A stretch of DNA of 38,681 bases, taken from assembly GCA_905233455.1 (NCBI GenBank), contig CAJOES010000021.1:1-38681 (forward strand). The letters are read 5' to 3'. The number at the start of each line of letters is the position of its first letter. The first letter of the stretch is position 1. Position numbers and translations under genes: made by a program. Below the pieces are notes generated by a model. The model was not told the origin of the DNA, ran no database searches, and saw nothing but the letters and a program-made list of their open reading frames with translations. Of this stretch, positions 29,126-37,118 are shown in pieces. The stretch is from an uncultured Synergistales bacterium. GTDB taxonomy: Bacteria; Synergistota; Synergistia; Synergistales; Aminobacteriaceae.

Positions 29126-30286
29126 ATGGGACAGAATAATTTTTTCAAGTGGATAACAGTACCGCCGGTAATCGCAATACTAACGATAATGTTTGCGCGC
29201 ACAATGGGAGGCGGTGAATTTGTCGGAGAAGTTGACCTGTCCATATGGGCAATAGTATGGCTTCTGTTCATCGTATTGAGCGTGCTTTACGGGCTGTTCA
29301 TCATCAACGGTTTCAACGCAGGGCTTATACCGCTTCAGGCAGTGGTACAGGGAATAATACTCTGCCCCATGTCCATAGCATACGGTGCAAGAATGATTCA
29401 GTGGCTCGGTGTTGTGTTTGCTGTAAGCGGTGCAGTTGCTCTTGTTGCCGCATACAATCAGGCAGAGGCGGCCCGGCATAAGGTGGTTGTAGTTGAAGTT
29501 GAGGACGACATGAAGAAACTTCCGGTGAACTTCGCCATCACTGATGATACCGGCGCAATACTGAATCTCAGTGATGACATGCTGAATGTTCTTGGCCTGT
29601 CCCGCGTGGATTCCATCGGCAAGAATATAGGCGACTGGTTCAGCCCGGTGGCAAAAACAGCAGAGATACACGACAAGATATGGGACATAAAGCGCAAGGC
29701 TGTGGAGGAAGGCAGAAGGTATTACTTTGAGCTTAACCCTAAAGGGCTTCCTGCAGGTGATTCAGAGGATGCTTCAGCAGGACAGCACGGCGGAGGAGAG
29801 TCCGCGCAGTTCCTTGATCCTGATACCCAGCTTCACACATATAATTACGGAATGGCCAGAATATCCGATGAACTCTACAGGGCAGAACGCTACAGCCACC
29901 CCGTAAGCGCGGTTATGATCCGTGTAGTTTTCCCGCAATTACTTCCTGATGACGATATGGCGAAATACATACGGCCTTTCAGGGCTTACTGCGCAAGAGT
30001 CATGAAGGACATTCGCCAGACTGATACGGCAATACAGGCCGGAGAATCACAGCTTCTTGTAGTTCTGTCGGAATGCACAGCGCATATGGCAGATGAAGTT
30101 ACAGGAAGGCTTGTAGCCATAGTGAATGCACTGTGCCCTACGTTTGAGGAATTCCTGCATGTTACGGTGCTGAACGTATCAGAGACAGTTGAAGGCGGCG
30201 GAAACATACCTACAGCACAGGAACTTGTTGACCGGATGACCCACGCAATGACGCGTAAATATTCGGCAAATGCACTGTCAGAATGA
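29126..30286 (+). CDS. Membrane protein with PAS-like and degenerate GGDEF domains
   Basis: A 386-aa protein with four predicted membrane helices (about 9-25, 38-62, 66-87, 90-110). A PAS-like cytoplasmic segment (about 132-185, FAITDDTGAILNLSDDMLNVLG) is followed by a domain that aligns with GGDEF diguanylate cyclases. Where an active enzyme has GG(D/E)EF this protein has AGESQ (residues 305-309), followed by the expected hydrophobic LLVVLSE strand. It therefore probably cannot make c-di-GMP and may instead sense a nucleotide or serve as a scaffold. It starts one base after the DUF4139 gene and its stop overlaps the lptF start. The GGDEF assignment is moderate because similarity is weak. Confidence 0.65.
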   Translation: MGQNNFFKWITVPPVIAILTIMFARTMGGGEFVGEVDLSIWAIVWLLFIVLSVLYGLFIINGFNAGLIPLQAVVQGIILCPMSIAYGARMIQWLGVVFAVSGAVALVAAYNQAEAARHKVVVVEVEDDMKKLPVNFAITDDTGAILNLSDDMLNVLGLSRVDSIGKNIGDWFSPVAKTAEIHDKIWDIKRKAVEEGRRYYFELNPKGLPAGDSEDASAGQHGGGESAQFLDPDTQLHTYNYGMARISDELYRAERYSHPVSAVMIRVVFPQLLPDDDMAKYIRPFRAYCARVMKDIRQTDTAIQAGESQLLVVLSECTAHMADEVTGRLVAIVNALCPTFEEFLHVTVLNVSETVEGGGNIPTAQELVDRMTHAMTRKYSANALSE

Positions 30287-31386
30287 GCAGGAGATTACTC
30301 AACAAATTAATATTAGGCTCATGCGCAGGGCCGTTTGTGTTCGGGATATTGATTTTCGTGCTTATCTTCGTTGCAGGAGATCTGTTGTTTCAGGCGGCAA
30401 AACTCATCATAGAACAGGGAGTAGCTTTCGGTGTTGTAGCACGCCTCTTCCTGTACCGCCTGCCTGAAGTAGTAGTCCTCACTATCCCGATGTCCTCGCT
30501 TCTGTCCACTCTTCTCGGAATGTCTACGCTGAATGCCGGGAGCGAGATTATAGCCTTAAAGTCTCTGGGAATCCCCTTCAAGAGGATACTTCGTCCCGTA
30601 ATATTTGCGTCAGTCCTAATATCAATAACTGCACTGGGGCTGAATGAAACTATAGTTCCGTTTGCTTCCATTGCGGCGGACAGGCTGATGAAATACGAGA
30701 TCATGAAGAATCAAGCTGTAGCAGTTCAGGAAAAAGTGTTTTTGCGCGAAGAAGAACGGGGAAGGCTCAAACGTGTATTCTATATTGACGAGCTTGACCC
30801 GAACAAAGGCGTGATGAGCGGGATAATGATGCACGAGTTTGACGACAACGGCGGGCTTTCCACGACACTTAACGCAAAACAGGGAATATGGCAGGACAAC
30901 CAGTGGTGGATAGAGGACGGCAGAATGTACACGATAAACAGCGACGGTGAAGTAAGTCTGCTTCTCCGGTTCGAGCGTCAGAGGCTTGCGCTGAAATTAT
31001 CGCCATCACAGCTCCGCAGCAGCACCAGAAGGCCGCGTGATATGAGTGCGCATGAATTATGGAGCTACATTACGCAGGCACAGGGAATCGGCTCAAACCT
31101 TCAGCAGTTATGGGTAATGTTTCACCTGAAACTTGCAGTGCCTTGGGCTTGCGTGATCATGGCGGTATTAGGCGCAGGGTTCGGCGCGTCAAGGCGGGGG
31201 CGTTCAGGCGGGGGCGTGGGCTTCGGCATAAGCGTTGTGCTTGTGTTCGCGTATTACGTCGTGATGTCTCTGTGCCGTGCACTTGGTGAGTCCGGGAATC
31301 TTCCTCCTGTTCTTGCAGGATGGGGGCCTAACGTCGTATTCATTGCAGTTGCTGCGTATTTCGCTATGAGGGTTGACAGGGTTTGA
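30283..31386 (+). CDS. lptF: LptF/LptG (YjgP/YjgQ) family LPS export permease
   Basis: This inner-membrane permease works with LptB and LptC to move lipopolysaccharide from the inner membrane to the outer membrane. The 367-aa product has three N-terminal helices (about 12-35, 55-75, 100-120), a large periplasmic domain, and three C-terminal helices (about 282-302, 308-328, 340-360), the standard YjgP/YjgQ plan. TIPMSSLLSTLLGMSTLNAGSEI is the typical cytoplasmic loop. Only one member is found here; a second permease gene would be elsewhere. Start overlaps the preceding stop (ATGA), and its own stop overlaps the lpxI start. Confidence 0.92.
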   Translation: MSRRLLNKLILGSCAGPFVFGILIFVLIFVAGDLLFQAAKLIIEQGVAFGVVARLFLYRLPEVVVLTIPMSSLLSTLLGMSTLNAGSEIIALKSLGIPFKRILRPVIFASVLISITALGLNETIVPFASIAADRLMKYEIMKNQAVAVQEKVFLREEERGRLKRVFYIDELDPNKGVMSGIMMHEFDDNGGLSTTLNAKQGIWQDNQWWIEDGRMYTINSDGEVSLLLRFERQRLALKLSPSQLRSSTRRPRDMSAHELWSYITQAQGIGSNLQQLWVMFHLKLAVPWACVIMAVLGAGFGASRRGRSGGGVGFGISVVLVFAYYVVMSLCRALGESGNLPPVLAGWGPNVVFIAVAAYFAMRVDRV

Positions 31387-32180
31387 GCATTGCACTTATT
31401 GCAGGGCGGGGGATTCTGCCCGTAGAGATAGCGAAAAGGCTTCAGGATACGCAAAAGTATACTCTTATCATTGCGCTTCGTGATGACCCTGATACGCTGA
31501 AGCCCTATGCGTCAAAACTGGTACGCATGAAAGCACCCAACATAGGAAAAGGCCTCAAAGAAATTAAGGCTTTCGGTTCTGATGAAGTGATCATGGCAGG
31601 TAGCATACCCAAAAATATAATATACTGCCTGCCGTTATTATTTGACCGTACTGCACGTTCAATCCTCCGCAAAAGTTTGCGTGATGATCATTCGCTGTTA
31701 GGGGCTGTTGTTGATGCCATTGAAGACGAGGGAATAAAAGTAATCCCTTACTGGCAGATACTTCCGGAGTTCATCGCCTCAAAGGGACAGTTGTCATCAC
31801 GTCCGCCGACACAACAAGAACTGAATGATACTGCATATGCTCAGGAGATACTGCGGGTAACTCTTCCGTGTTCTTTCGGACAGGCCGTATGTGTTGCTGA
31901 CGGAGCGGTCGTTGCGATTGAGGCAATGGAGGGGACGGACAGAATGATTATGCGTTCAGGGGAGCTTTCCGGGCACGGCGTTATCGTGAAGATGATGAAG
32001 ACCACGCAGGATATGCGCTATGACCTTCCTACTGTCGGGACGAATACGCTTGAGGCAATGAAGAAAGCAGGTTTGACGTGTCTTGCTGTCGAGGCCGGGA
32101 AGACTCTGGTGCTTGAGCCGGAAAAGTTCTTTGCGCTCGCTGAAAAATACAATATAGCTGTGTGGGGTATAGGGCAATGA
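31383..32180 (+). CDS. lpxI: UDP-2,3-diacylglucosamine pyrophosphatase LpxI
   Basis: LpxI hydrolyses UDP-2,3-diacylglucosamine to lipid X in lipid A synthesis, as an alternative to LpxH. The 265-aa length and the family segments IALIAGRGILPVEIAKRL at the start, KPYASKL, FGSDEVIMAGSIPK near 75, DGAVVAIEAMEGTDRMI near 180 and LPTVGTNTLEAMKKAG near 220 all fit (DUF1009). The start is a TTG overlapping the lptF stop (TTGA). The 3' end overlaps lpxB by four bases. Confidence 0.95.
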   Translation: MSIALIAGRGILPVEIAKRLQDTQKYTLIIALRDDPDTLKPYASKLVRMKAPNIGKGLKEIKAFGSDEVIMAGSIPKNIIYCLPLLFDRTARSILRKSLRDDHSLLGAVVDAIEDEGIKVIPYWQILPEFIASKGQLSSRPPTQQELNDTAYAQEILRVTLPCSFGQAVCVADGAVVAIEAMEGTDRMIMRSGELSGHGVIVKMMKTTQDMRYDLPTVGTNTLEAMKKAGLTCLAVEAGKTLVLEPEKFFALAEKYNIAVWGIGQ

Positions 32181-33307
32181 AGAATATTTTTGTGTCTTGC
32201 GGTGAGGTCAGCGGGGACATTTACGCCGGTGATTTTATCCGTGAGTTATTGCGGATTGATGACAGCCTCAATATATGGGGAATGCTCGGAACTGAGGGTG
32301 TGAGGGCAGGAGGGCGCGCTGTCTGGAGCTATGAGGAGCTAAAGCTGATGGGAATCATTGAGGTGATACCTGCACTGCCGAGACTCCTGCGGCTCATGAG
32401 GAATATCACACGCGAGATCATGAACGTTAAGCCTGATGCTGTCGTGCTGATTGACTGTCCGGACTTTCATCTGTTTCTTGCGCGTTCTCTCCGGAAGTCA
32501 GGATACACCGGCAAAATAATATCTCTCATTCCTCCTACTGTATGGGCATGGAGAGCCGGACGGGTCAAGAACCTGAAGCGTGATTTTGATCTGTGCCTGC
32601 CGTTATTCTCGTTTGAACATAAATTCCTGCTTGACCGTAACGTTAATTCCCTATGGAAGGCTCATCCCTTAGTGCATGACCTTGAAGGCGTTAAAGTTCC
32701 CGAAAGTTTTACGCATAGATTTCCGGGGCAGAAAGTCATTGCGCTTATGCCGGGCAGCAGACGTTACGACATAAATTATCACCTTGATATTCTGCTCGGA
32801 ACTGCGGAAATTCTCCAGGCTAAAGGATATTTGCCGGTATTCTCCGTTGCCCCGGGCTTGAGCGCAGATCTTGCGGCTGAACTTCGCGGTCGTGTCAGTG
32901 CTTCGGGCTTTGAGCTGTGGAATGGTGAAGGCAGGGAGCTTATGCTCGGCTCTCTTGCCGCTGCTGGGGTGTCCGGAACTGTAGCTGTTGAAGCTATGCT
33001 GTTGTGCCGGTATATGGTCGTGATCTACAACATGAAGCGTATGACCTATGCACTGCTGAAACACTTAGTGCGCACAAAGAATATATCTATACCCAACATG
33101 CTTACGGGAAAGCAGGTTTACCCGGAACTGCTTTGCGGTGCGGCAACTCCCGAAAGAATCACGCAGGAGCTTGAAGGCTATCTGAATGATGACCGGAAAC
33201 GCAAAGAGATTGATGCACGCCTGCTTGAAGCGCGGGGATCTATGGGGAATGAGAATGCTGCTAGGTTCTGGGCTAAATGCGTCATGAGATTAACGGGAGG
33301 TGAATAA
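32177..33307 (+). CDS. lpxB: Lipid-A-disaccharide synthase LpxB
   Basis: LpxB condenses lipid X with UDP-2,3-diacylglucosamine to the disaccharide of lipid A (GT19 family). The N-terminus MKNIFVSCGEVSGDIYAGD is diagnostic. INCPDFH-like DCPDFHLFLAR lies near residue 96, IPPTVWAWR near 121, ALMPGSR near 190, and the SGTVAVEAML donor-binding region near 274. The true start is the ATG at 32177, which forms an ATGA overlap with lpxI; a GTG at 32162 is less likely. With lpxI and lptF upstream it marks a lipid A operon. The ATPase gene starts three bases after its stop. Confidence 0.96.
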   Translation: MKNIFVSCGEVSGDIYAGDFIRELLRIDDSLNIWGMLGTEGVRAGGRAVWSYEELKLMGIIEVIPALPRLLRLMRNITREIMNVKPDAVVLIDCPDFHLFLARSLRKSGYTGKIISLIPPTVWAWRAGRVKNLKRDFDLCLPLFSFEHKFLLDRNVNSLWKAHPLVHDLEGVKVPESFTHRFPGQKVIALMPGSRRYDINYHLDILLGTAEILQAKGYLPVFSVAPGLSADLAAELRGRVSASGFELWNGEGRELMLGSLAAAGVSGTVAVEAMLLCRYMVVIYNMKRMTYALLKHLVRTKNISIPNMLTGKQVYPELLCGAATPERITQELEGYLNDDRKRKEIDARLLEARGSMGNENAARFWAKCVMRLTGGE

Positions 33308-33310
33308 ATC

Positions 33311-34312
33311 TTGCTGGAATCACTAACGGTTACGGGCTTCAGGAAGTACAAAACACTGACATTAAAGGGGCTTGGCCGTATAAATTTCATCATGGGTTCA
33401 AATAACATAGGCAAGACATCAATACTTGAAGCAGTCTACACATGGGCTTGCGGACAAAATATTTTGCCGGTAATATCACGGACTCTTTCACGCGGGAGGT
33501 ATTCAGGAAGCCTTCAATCATACTGGCTCATGAAAGAGATCATTGCACTGTTCCGCGACAAGATTTCACGGCCGTTAGTGATGACATTTGACGGCATGAG
33601 CAACAACGCTTCTGCATGTTTCACGCACAAAGTGTATATCTCTCCGTCGTCGGCAAAATGGGAAGTAACCTGCAACGGAGCTGACCCCATGACATATGAT
33701 GTTTCCGTGCCGGTGCAGAATCTTCCAGAAGCAGAGTCATTCTGTCCTGCAAGATATATCGATATTCTGTCGTATGCCGAGCCTTCCGGTAGTGTCGGGC
33801 TGTATGACTCGCTCAAGAAGAATGGGCTTTTAGCACAGGCCGCGCATGAGATGTCTGAAGTGTTCCCGGATATTGCGGGCTTTGACATGACGGAGGACAC
33901 TGAAGGCACAGCAGTGAGCGTCATACGCACTGACGGAGAAACCCTGCCGCTGTACACATACGGCGACGGCGTGCAGAGATGGTTTCATATTATGGGAAGC
34001 ATGATGCTCTACAGGGACTCGGTTATCTGCATTGATGAGGCGGATACGGGATTTCACCCTGCCGTACAGCATGAGTTCAGCAGGAGTCTTATACGTTCGG
34101 CGGAGAAGAATAACATACAGCTGTTCATCACAACACATAACCTTGAATTTATTGATACGTTCCTTGAAGCATCGGAAAATTTCAGCAAAAACATATCAGA
34201 CAGCATAAAAATAATCACTCTCCGTGAAAGGGAAGACACTCCGGCATTGAGGGTATTGAATGCTTCAGAGGCAATAGAAGCACGGGACAAATTTTCGCTG
34301 GAGCTGAGGTAA
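33311..34312 (+). CDS. AAA ATPase of the RecF/OLD-like type (AAA_15/AAA_21)
   Basis: A 333-aa single-domain ABC-type ATPase. The N-terminal strand MLESLTVTGFRKYKTL leads to Walker A GSNNIGKTS (29-37). An ABC-signature-like YGDGVQRW lies near 217, Walker B is ICIDEAD (240-245, Asp242 and Glu243), and the switch histidine is His276 in TTHNLEF. All catalytic residues are present. Proteins of this layout occur alone or with a TOPRIM nuclease in OLD, Gabija and PARIS defence systems. The next gene, two bases on, encodes a TOPRIM-like protein, so the pair resembles a split OLD. A TTG start with GGGAGG ten bases upstream is used. A housekeeping role in the envelope operon cannot be excluded. Confidence 0.85.
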   Translation: MLESLTVTGFRKYKTLTLKGLGRINFIMGSNNIGKTSILEAVYTWACGQNILPVISRTLSRGRYSGSLQSYWLMKEIIALFRDKISRPLVMTFDGMSNNASACFTHKVYISPSSAKWEVTCNGADPMTYDVSVPVQNLPEAESFCPARYIDILSYAEPSGSVGLYDSLKKNGLLAQAAHEMSEVFPDIAGFDMTEDTEGTAVSVIRTDGETLPLYTYGDGVQRWFHIMGSMMLYRDSVICIDEADTGFHPAVQHEFSRSLIRSAEKNNIQLFITTHNLEFIDTFLEASENFSKNISDSIKIITLREREDTPALRVLNASEAIEARDKFSLELR

Positions 34313-34314
34313 TC

Positions 34315-35040
34315 ATGATGAATCTGATTTTATGCGAGGGCGGGACGGATCAAAGGCTTCTGGGGTCATACCTTGAGCGTTCTATGGGCTGGAAACGCAG
34401 GAACATGAAAACTGCACCCTTCAATCATTATCCGGTGATATGGTACGCAAAGGACGGAAATAAAACGCTGGGAATAATGGCTGTGAACGGGACGAATTTT
34501 TCCGCGCCGCTTGCGGACATTATGAGAAGCGAAATGTTTGAACACACCGTAGAGAGGCTCGCAATAGTTACAGATCATGATGATGCTTCAGCAGAGACAG
34601 AAAGGCTCATGAAGATTCATGATGTCATGTGCAGGGGACTGGGGATAATGCCTTTCTTTGATGATATTGTGCCGTCGCAGTGGGCTGACGTAATATTCTT
34701 TGACGGCTTTGCTTCAAGGTGCGTGATCAAGTTCTGCTACCTTCTTGTGCCTTTGCGTGAAACCGGGGCACTTGAGACATTCATGCTTGAGGCCATATCG
34801 GAGAACCCCGAAATGTGCAATGTAGTTGAGCGGGCAATGTATTTCACCGACGGCGTGAGGGCGACATCACACCGCTATCTGAAGCGGCGCAGGGAAATCA
34901 TAAAGTCCCGGCTTGGCGCGTGCATGGCGGTCTTCAATCCAGACAGGATATTCAACACAACAAACTGGATGATACGTGCTGTAGCTTGGGAGAACTTTGA
35001 AGCTGCGCATAAACAGTTTGAACCGCTCAAACATATATGA
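34315..35040 (+). CDS. TOPRIM-like, DUF3226-type protein paired with AAA ATPase
   Basis: A 241-aa protein with TOPRIM-fold signs: a glutamate motif LILCEGGTDQRLL (Glu8, Asp12) and a DxD-type motif IVTDHDD (Asp87, Asp89). The C-terminal half with GALETFMLEAI near 160 and a basic stretch KRRREIIKSRL near 193 is consistent with DUF3226. TOPRIM nucleases with an AAA partner cut nucleic acid in OLD-like systems, where the ATPase gates the nuclease. It follows the ATPase gene by two bases, so the two are presumably co-translated and work together. The DUF3226 match is from memory of the family pattern. No gene downstream belongs to the pair. Confidence 0.7.
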   Translation: MMNLILCEGGTDQRLLGSYLERSMGWKRRNMKTAPFNHYPVIWYAKDGNKTLGIMAVNGTNFSAPLADIMRSEMFEHTVERLAIVTDHDDASAETERLMKIHDVMCRGLGIMPFFDDIVPSQWADVIFFDGFASRCVIKFCYLLVPLRETGALETFMLEAISENPEMCNVVERAMYFTDGVRATSHRYLKRRREIIKSRLGACMAVFNPDRIFNTTNWMIRAVAWENFEAAHKQFEPLKHI

Positions 35041-35094: not shown

Positions 35095-35829
35095 ATGAAA
35101 GTAGTTCATATTCTGGCAGGTTCTTTTTCTGACGGCTGGACTTATCAGGAAAATCTTCTCACAAAATGGCAGCACAAGAACGGCCATGAAGTTACAATGA
35201 TAACTTCCAGATGGTCATGGAATGCAGAAGGATTCATGACCATTCTTCCAGAATACAAGCATGATTATGTTAATGAGGACGGCGTTAGGATAATAAGACT
35301 CCCATGCAGGGGAACGGACAGATATTCAATGGGCTTTGATGATCTTTACCTGTCGATAGAAAGATGTAATCCTGATATTATATTTATGCACGAAGTTACT
35401 CACAATACAAATGCAATAATAGAGTACCTGAGAAATCACCGCAATGTAACTGCATATGCGGACAGCCATTCAGACTTTTCGAACAGCGGAAACAAGAGAA
35501 GCATAAAATTTCAAATAAAACGCATTCTAGGCAGAACGTCAAGAGAATCACGGGCACTGATCCCGTATGTAAAAAAATTTTTCGGCGTGCTTCCGGCGCG
35601 GGTAGATTATCTGAATTACGTATACAAAATCCCTAAAGACAAATGTGAACTGCTCTTAATGGGTGCAGATGATGACCTTGCAGCAGAGGCTGCAAAACCC
35701 GAAGTGCGGAAGAAACTGCGTGAACAATATAACATTTCTCCGGAAGATTTTCTCATAATGACCGGAGGAAAAATAGACTTGGCCAAGTCTCAGACTCTTT
35801 TGCTGATGCTACCGGCAAGGATAACGTGA
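35095..35829 (+). pseudogene. Glycosyltransferase (GT-B, family 1/4 type), N-terminal part, frameshifted
   Basis: A 244-aa open frame encoding the N-terminal half of a GT-B glycosyltransferase: HILAGSFSDGWTYQENLLTK at the start, then a DIIFMHEVTHNTNAIIEYL segment and the start of the C-terminal domain (TGGKIDLAKSQTLLLM). The reading frame then breaks near 35800-35805; the continuation DATGKDNVKLLVFGP is found in the -1 frame, in the next entry. One base appears to be missing. TGGAGG lies before the ATG. Likely acts on LPS or surface polysaccharide, given the neighbouring lipid A genes, but substrate is unknown. Confidence 0.8.
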
Positions 35830-36242
35830 AGCTGCTCGTATTCGGCCCCGTAGCAGATGAACTTAAGGAAAGGTTCAATGCACTTGTTGACGGCAGAAAG
35901 ATTCAGTATGTCCCGTATGTTGAAGGCAAAGACACGTATTCATATTTTGCGTCGGCTGATCTTCTGGTGTTTCCCGGCCGTCATTCTGTATTCTGGGAGC
36001 AGGCTGCAGGTCAGGGAATACCTATGCTCTGCAAGGAATGGGCAGGAACTAAGCATGTTGATTTAGGCGGCAATGTTCGTTTCCTGAAGCATGACAGTAC
36101 TGAAGAAATACAGGGAGAAATTAAGCGGCTATTAGATAACCCTGAAGAGTATAGATTCATGAAGTCGGTTGCAGAACGCGAGGGAATGAAAACATTTTCA
36201 TACAGGAACATAGCAAGGCAAAGCATAGAAGATTATGAGTAA
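35826..36242 (+). pseudogene. Glycosyltransferase, C-terminal part, frameshifted
   Basis: A 138-aa open frame that completes the gene above. It carries the nucleotide-sugar binding half: KLLVFGPVADELKERF, YVPYVEGKDTYSYFASADLLVFPG, and the EQAAGQGIPMLCKEWAGT motif that usually holds the donor-binding glutamate. It overlaps the upstream frame by four bases, but has no ribosome binding site of its own. The intact gene would encode about 382 residues, a normal GT-B length. Either a recent mutation, phase variation or an assembly error explains the break. Confidence 0.8.
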
Positions 36243-36281
36243 TTAGCCGGTAATATTTTTTCAGGTTATCGTGTTATTATT

Positions 36282-36327
36282 CCTCCCGTAATTTAACAGG
36301 CTGAACTGTTAAAACTTTTACGGGAGG
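36282..36327 (+). promoter_or_regulatory. Hairpin sequestering the ribosome binding site of the NikK-like gene
   Basis: Outer arms CCTCCCGTAA (36282-36291) and TTACGGGAGG (36318-36327) are perfect complements. Inside them TTTAACAG (36292-36299) pairs with CTGTTAAA (36306-36313) around a six-base loop, with one four-base bulge ACTT on the 3' side. The 3' arm contains GGGAGG (36322-36327), the Shine-Dalgarno of the gene starting at 36339. It could therefore block translation until opened. Alternatively it is an operator palindrome, or a weak terminator of the glycosyltransferase, since TTTT follows. Confidence 0.65.
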
Positions 36328-36338
36328 TTTTCATTAGC

Positions 36339-37118
36339 ATGAAACGTATTATATCAGTTATACTTCTCCTGACTATTGCGGCAGTTCCCGCATTTCCCCA
36401 CGAACTAACCATCAAGGCTAAAAGCAGTGAGATGAAAGCAGGCGAACCCTTCAATGCGACGGTGCAGTCAGCTCACAGGTTCATTGTTCCGGAAGAGGTT
36501 GAAGTGCTTGAACGCGTCAAGGCGGGAATCATTGAGGACGGAAAGCTCACAGAGTCCAAACTCACGGGAAATGATTCGGAGCTTTGCATTGATTTCACCG
36601 TTACCCCAAAAGACACATCGGGTTCGGTCATGCTTGCGGCCATAAAGGACGGCGAAACATGGTGCGTAACGAACGAGGGCGGGAAGTCAGGAGCGCGCAA
36701 GGATCTTGAGGCAAATGGCTTGAAGGTTCTCACAGCCACGAAGAACGACAAATACGCTAAGGCACTCTACAACACATCACATGACGACAAGAAATATTCT
36801 CAGGTTATCGGGCATCCTCTGGAGATTATCCCCATAACCAACCCTGCGGACGCTAAGACGGGTGAATATTTCCATGTGCGCATACTCCTGAACGGACAAC
36901 CATACACCGGGCCGGTATGGGCAACTTATGACGGTTTCGTTACGGAATATGAGAACACATACGCCTATTACACGGAAGCGGAGAACGGTGAAGCACACAT
37001 CAAAATCACTTCTCCGGGCTGGTGGGGAATAAGGGCATTTCAGGGAGGACTGCCGGGTATTGAAGGAGATTATGACGCTCTGACACTCCGTGCATTCCTG
37101 CTGTTTGAAGTGAAGTAA
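36339..37118 (+). CDS. nikK: DUF4198 periplasmic protein (NikK-like) of a nickel/cobalt ECF transporter
   Basis: A 259-aa secreted protein: signal peptide at residues 1-20 (ISVILLLTIAAVPAFPH) and a mature N-terminus HELTIK beginning with a histidine, as in NikK proteins, where His ligands bind Ni2+. The DUF4198 domain shows YFHVRILLNGQPYTGPVWATYDGF-type sequence near 180 and GWWGIRAF near 228. DUF4198 proteins accompany Ni/Co ECF transporters, presumably passing metal to the membrane core. It is followed with no gap by a NikL-like gene and NikM. The ribosome binding site is inside a strong hairpin. Confidence 0.85.
   Translation: MKRIISVILLLTIAAVPAFPHELTIKAKSSEMKAGEPFNATVQSAHRFIVPEEVEVLERVKAGIIEDGKLTESKLTGNDSELCIDFTVTPKDTSGSVMLAAIKDGETWCVTNEGGKSGARKDLEANGLKVLTATKNDKYAKALYNTSHDDKKYSQVIGHPLEIIPITNPADAKTGEYFHVRILLNGQPYTGPVWATYDGFVTEYENTYAYYTEAENGEAHIKITSPGWWGIRAFQGGLPGIEGDYDALTLRAFLLFEVK

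Follow-up and report, generated by a model that had tools for sequence, protein, structure and literature searches.

Directly behind the lipid A gene lpxB of an uncultured member of the Synergistales lie two small genes, which the first-pass annotation had read as an ATPase and a TOPRIM-like protein and had proposed as a split OLD/PARIS-like defence system in an unusual place. What is this pair, and what brought it to the tail of an essential operon? We examined the question in the window, by which we mean the whole stretch of 38,681 nucleotides that was analysed. In our judgement the pair is probably (roughly 0.78) a PDC-M38 cassette, that is, a split ATPase plus TOPRIM candidate anti-phage system, which was inserted behind lpxB and is expressed by read-through.

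All of the genes concerned are encoded on the forward strand. The host operon (30283..33307, context only) consists of lptF (30283-31386; Pfam LptF_LptG, 5e-93), lpxI (31383-32180; LpxI_C, 2.9e-43) and lpxB (32162-33307; LpxB, 3.6e-69), with lptF and lpxI overlapping by four bases and lpxI and lpxB overlapping as well. As first described, the pair continues this overlapping run. The ATPase gene (33311..34312; 333 aa, TTG start) begins three bases after the stop codon of lpxB, and the open reading frame of the TOPRIM-like nuclease partner (34315..35040; 241 aa, ATG start) follows after a gap of two bases. The ribosome-binding site of the ATPase gene, GGGAGG, falls in the last codons of lpxB, so that 33294..33310 (ACGGGAGGTGAATAAATCTTG) covers the 3' end of lpxB with this site, its stop codon and the bases leading up to the TTG; with such an arrangement, translational coupling of the ATPase gene to lpxB is possible. 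No promoter-like site was found on the plus strand between 32900 and 34151, but consensus scans there perform no better than chance; the pair would probably be expressed by read-through. The layout of the open reading frames, the motifs, the profile matches and the operon run of the pair are real far beyond chance. The GC content of the pair is 0.47-0.49, and both GC and codon usage are the same as in the host genes; composition therefore gives no mark of recent foreign origin. Profile searches recognised flagellar, metabolic and envelope genes among the neighbours in the window but no defence or mobile-element genes beside the pair, a point against a defence cassette.

The first protein is an intact RecF/OLD-like ATPase of the ABC type, as had been noted. 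It carries a Walker A motif (GSNNIGKT; G29...G34-K35-T36), a Walker B motif (D242-E243) and a switch-type histidine (H276), all of which are invariant across an alignment of 10 homologous sequences, and it exceeds the Pfam gathering scores of both AAA_15 (73.0 bits) and AAA_21 (70.8 bits). Among the PADLOC defence profiles it matches PDC-M38A (E=2e-112, 374 bits), AbiLi (3e-36, 124 bits) and AriA (2e-21, 75 bits). The fold matches of its structural model are Rad50, PtuA, retron ATPases and the Eco8 OLD protein, and the model is of low confidence over its middle part (residues 49-159).

The second protein shows the acidic residues on which its initial TOPRIM assignment had been based, E8 and the pair Asp87-x-Asp89 (D87, D89), and these are invariant in 10/10 homologues. 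It matches Pfam DUF3226 (33.9 bits, cut-off 27) and the PADLOC profile PDC-M38B (E=8.7e-56, residues 1-241 aligned to profile positions 1-240), and its PADLOC matches at E<=1 are limited to PDC-M38B models. In an AlphaFold2 model computed from five sequences (pLDDT 78, pTM 0.80), E8 is placed just after a strand formed by residues 2-7, and D87 and D89 at and just after the end of a strand formed by residues 79-88. A glutamate and a DxD motif at such strand ends are the arrangement expected for a TOPRIM domain. No direct match of the window protein to a TOPRIM profile was found; its homologues gave weak matches to OLD-like_TOPRIM (2.8e-4) and Toprim (4.1e-3), both below the cut-off, and to a retron RT-Toprim profile (9e-7). 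The only significant PDB match of the model by fold is 2P62 (4.5e-6). This structure, protein PH0156 of Pyrococcus horikoshii, is also the closest solved structure by sequence profile (6.3e-8), and shares with the partner 14% identity in the fold alignment at a TM-score of about 0.5; it is a hypothetical archaeal protein, which we take to be a DUF3226 member. A fold search of the partner model against viral structures returned nothing informative. Taken from the motifs, the predicted topology and the weak profile matches, a TOPRIM fold is likely but not proven.

Judged by profile, the pair is a member of PDC-M38: the ATPase scores against PDC-M38A above any other defence model, and the adjacent partner matches PDC-M38B. 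PDC-M38 is already catalogued in PADLOC as a candidate system, so the gene combination is not an undescribed one. Our literature search found no paper naming PDC-M38, no experiment on it and nothing on DUF3226; a study of Streptococcus thermophilus regards such PDC genes as a possible but unvalidated source of resistance systems (PMC11514479).

The pair might instead be a bona fide PARIS system (class 4 OLD), composed of AriA and AriB. PARIS has the same layout, with an OLD-type ATPase gene followed by an adjacent TOPRIM-type gene, and in its architecture an AriA hexamer holds three AriB, which are released by Ocr-like triggers. The published detection rule combines a threshold for the ATPase, either AAA_15 (32) or AAA_21 (27), with a DUF4435 partner (PMC9122126). 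The window ATPase passes both thresholds and also matches AriA, as given above; however, the AriB partner is a DUF4435 protein whereas the window partner belongs to DUF3226, with neither a DUF4435 match in Pfam nor an AriB match in PADLOC found at E<=1. Moreover, PDC-M38A exceeds AriA by about 300 bits, both window proteins are closer to the PDC-M38 profiles, and no DUF4435 protein was found in the genome of the window (G000), compared with one in the congener G019. Bona fide PARIS is thus a decidedly unlikely reading, and by the published rule the pair is PARIS-like in layout and not PARIS. Searching with both proteins against OLD, DUF3226, DUF4435 and PARIS profiles, as had been suggested at the outset, upheld an OLD/PARIS-like ATPase and layout while assigning the partner to DUF3226 and PDC-M38.

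In the congener G019, the DUF4435 (AriB-type) domain lies inside a 544-aa open frame (L089, G019:C12:24771-25367) that could possibly encode a fused PARIS protein.

Other systems with related parts were considered and rejected. The ATPase is AbiLi-like, but its PDC-M38A score is three times higher than that against AbiLi, and the matches of the partner solely to PDC-M38B models set the pair apart from AbiL (AbiLi plus AbiLii). OLD enzymes of classes 1-3, the Gabija protein GajA and the retron-Eco8 OLD protein combine the same two expected activities, an ABC ATPase and a TOPRIM domain, in one polypeptide, whereas the window encodes them in two separate open reading frames, which excludes classes 1-3 as these are defined (PMC10568477). 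Gabija adds a UvrD-like helicase, and retrons add a reverse transcriptase and a non-coding RNA, none of which was found beside the pair. Gabija was rejected on the missing helicase gene (GajB), the neighbours being lpxB and glycosyltransferase fragments, and a retron on the missing reverse transcriptase gene. The pair does fit a recent survey in which TOPRIM-linked OLD-ABC dyads emerge as a broad recurring theme (PMC12839542).

If the two proteins form one system, their genes should travel together, and the neighbourhood survey that had been proposed for the homologues found that they do. The ATPase gene stands directly upstream of the TOPRIM gene at all ten intact loci (the window, L054/L061, L058, L059, L060, L074, L075, L076, L077 and L078), mostly with a four-base overlap; gene order and adjacency in the window are the same as at the nine other loci. 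The homologues are only 21-34% identical to the window proteins, yet the catalytic residues are invariant. Besides the window, a whole-genome search located the pair in a second genome of the order (G161, corresponding to L061); the count for the phylum is 2/188 genomes. Pairs were also recovered from Bacillota by means of an alignment of two distant members (L058, L059 and L060), and further ones (L074-L078) from genomes sampled around those. The Bacillota samples, each of which includes its own seed genome, gave 3/394 genomes and 3 strong matches in 391, and the weaker further matches are fragments or very weak. PDC-M38 copies are therefore rare, in about 1% of the species sampled, and patchily spread. 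When the window TOPRIM protein alone was scanned against the genome and viral collections it gave no match, nor did tblastn of plasmids and phages; in those collections family members are either too distant in sequence or too scarce. With matches to both PDC-M38 profiles, consistent co-occurrence and a sparse distribution, the proposal of a split ATPase plus TOPRIM defence-type pair stands, although for a candidate that had been catalogued before.

The mobile context of several homologous loci also speaks for a cassette. At L076 (1702-11727), the pair lies in a stretch of roughly 9 kb that contains a serine recombinase and interrupts a manC-like gene; this stretch is apparently an integrative element with the cassette as cargo. 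At L074 the pair is near a serine recombinase, and at L078 it is beside IS66-like genes. A viral contig (L083, 6783-9861) encodes a PDC-M38 variant, again an ATPase followed by a PDC-M38B protein, whose ATPase has an N-terminal extension of roughly 400 residues (ParB-like by eye) and spans the whole 715-position PDC-M38A model; the window copy has no such extension. It differs from other members too in following the last gene of a lipid A operon. Separately, L079 (2330-5848) contains a C-terminal remnant of a PDC-M38B gene adjoining a PDC-M68B-like gene, which suggests that a copy is decaying there within a defence locus.

At four of the ten intact loci an XRE-type HTH (HTH_3) gene precedes the pair. 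This, together with a HipA_C-like fragment near the L076 pair, would be consistent with a toxin-antitoxin or stress module that is not anti-phage, in which a TOPRIM toxin is kept in check by the ATPase or, at loci that have one, by the XRE protein. The window copy, however, has an intact TOPRIM gene and no adjacent HTH gene, and in PARIS the deletion of either gene is non-toxic, which excludes a toxin-antitoxin mode there (PMC9122126). We consider a toxin-antitoxin module unlikely and retain the reading of a candidate anti-phage cassette.

That the pair follows lpxB in the operon and has its ribosome-binding site within the 3' end of that gene is what speaks for housekeeping host genes that act in lipid A or envelope synthesis or in DNA repair (RecF/RecR-like). 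Against this, neither the TOPRIM protein (at family level) nor a full-length relative of the ATPase was found in any of the 42 congeneric species searched, 39 of which have lpxB, and homologues elsewhere occur at unrelated places; a housekeeping role is highly improbable. We read the genes behind lpxB in 19 relatives. In 14 of them a DUF4198 gene follows lpxB at a distance of 73-244 bp, forming an empty site, and in the window the same DUF4198 gene sits 3 kb downstream. One further relative (G004) has a glycosyltransferase between lpxB and the DUF4198 gene, and in the remaining four the genes behind lpxB are different or outside the stretch. Since the pair is missing from all 42 congeners and lpxB leads to the DUF4198 gene in 14/19 relatives, its location in the lipid A operon is best explained as a lineage-specific insertion. 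On these gene orders, the 3' end of the operon is a slot of variable content, and the location is not a conserved functional link. The setting is indeed unusual, as had been remarked, but a functional coupling to the envelope pathway finds no support. A functional wiring of the cassette into the lipid A operon, in which lpxB translation would set its level and a candidate defence nuclease would be tuned by envelope stress or by phages interfering with LPS synthesis, is very unlikely.

By the same comparison, a glycosyltransferase also entered this slot at some point. In the window, the glycosyltransferase gene (35095-36242) is broken into overlapping frames (35095-35829 and 35826-36242), whereas its homologue in G004 is a single frame of 395 aa in the same place (L042 5071-6258); the break is either a frameshift mutation or a sequencing error. 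The homologue is 61-73% identical and lies between the same two flanking genes, which counts against the location being an assembly artefact. A chimeric contig might be suspected, since the assembly is a draft of 166 contigs; the pair, however, has the composition of the host genes, and its ribosome-binding site and the end of lpxB join seamlessly, so we regard an artefact as barely credible and continue with a genuine insertion.

The right edge of the slot is a promoter-like region before the DUF4198 and cbiM genes (36225..36345, forward strand), in which the window and its relatives share a block, TAA(C/T)ATTTTT...GTGTTATTATTCCTCC. This conserved block (TAACATTTTT...GTGTTATTATTCCTCC) precedes the DUF4198-cbiM genes, is found directly behind lpxB in relatives, and looks like a promoter or operator, perhaps a metal-responsive one. 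A second variable slot was observed between lpxI and lpxB, where other congeneric species have one or two copies of an uncharacterised gene of 535-572 aa (L040 2153-3760; L036 809-4121; L049 813-4123) that is absent here.

How might such a cassette work? In PARIS, AriB is kept inactive by AriA; once a phage protein has bound, AriB is released and cuts tRNA (PMC12409363). OLD enzymes use two-metal TOPRIM sites that act on DNA (PMC10568477). By analogy with these systems we infer a defence function, with control of the nuclease by the ATPase, and the pair plausibly works like PARIS without being PARIS. An oligomer of the ATPase would bind the TOPRIM protein and keep it inactive. Upon sensing a trigger made by the phage, or nucleic acid altered by it, the ATPase would release or activate the TOPRIM protein, which would then cut DNA or tRNA through a two-metal site formed by E8, D87 and D89, and the infected cell would be stopped by abortive infection. 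In this lineage the cassette would have entered the site that separates lpxB from the DUF4198-cbiM genes, and transcripts reading through from the lipid A operon, together with translational coupling, would probably provide its expression.

The locus is a clean example of a candidate family of split ATPase-TOPRIM defence systems, one that differs from PARIS, and close relatives supply the matching empty sites. PDC-M38 bears on the question whether partners of the DUF3226 type also follow the sense-and-release logic known from PARIS. Its occurrence here indicates that a defence-type cassette need not belong to a defence island and can stand by itself behind the last gene of an essential operon.
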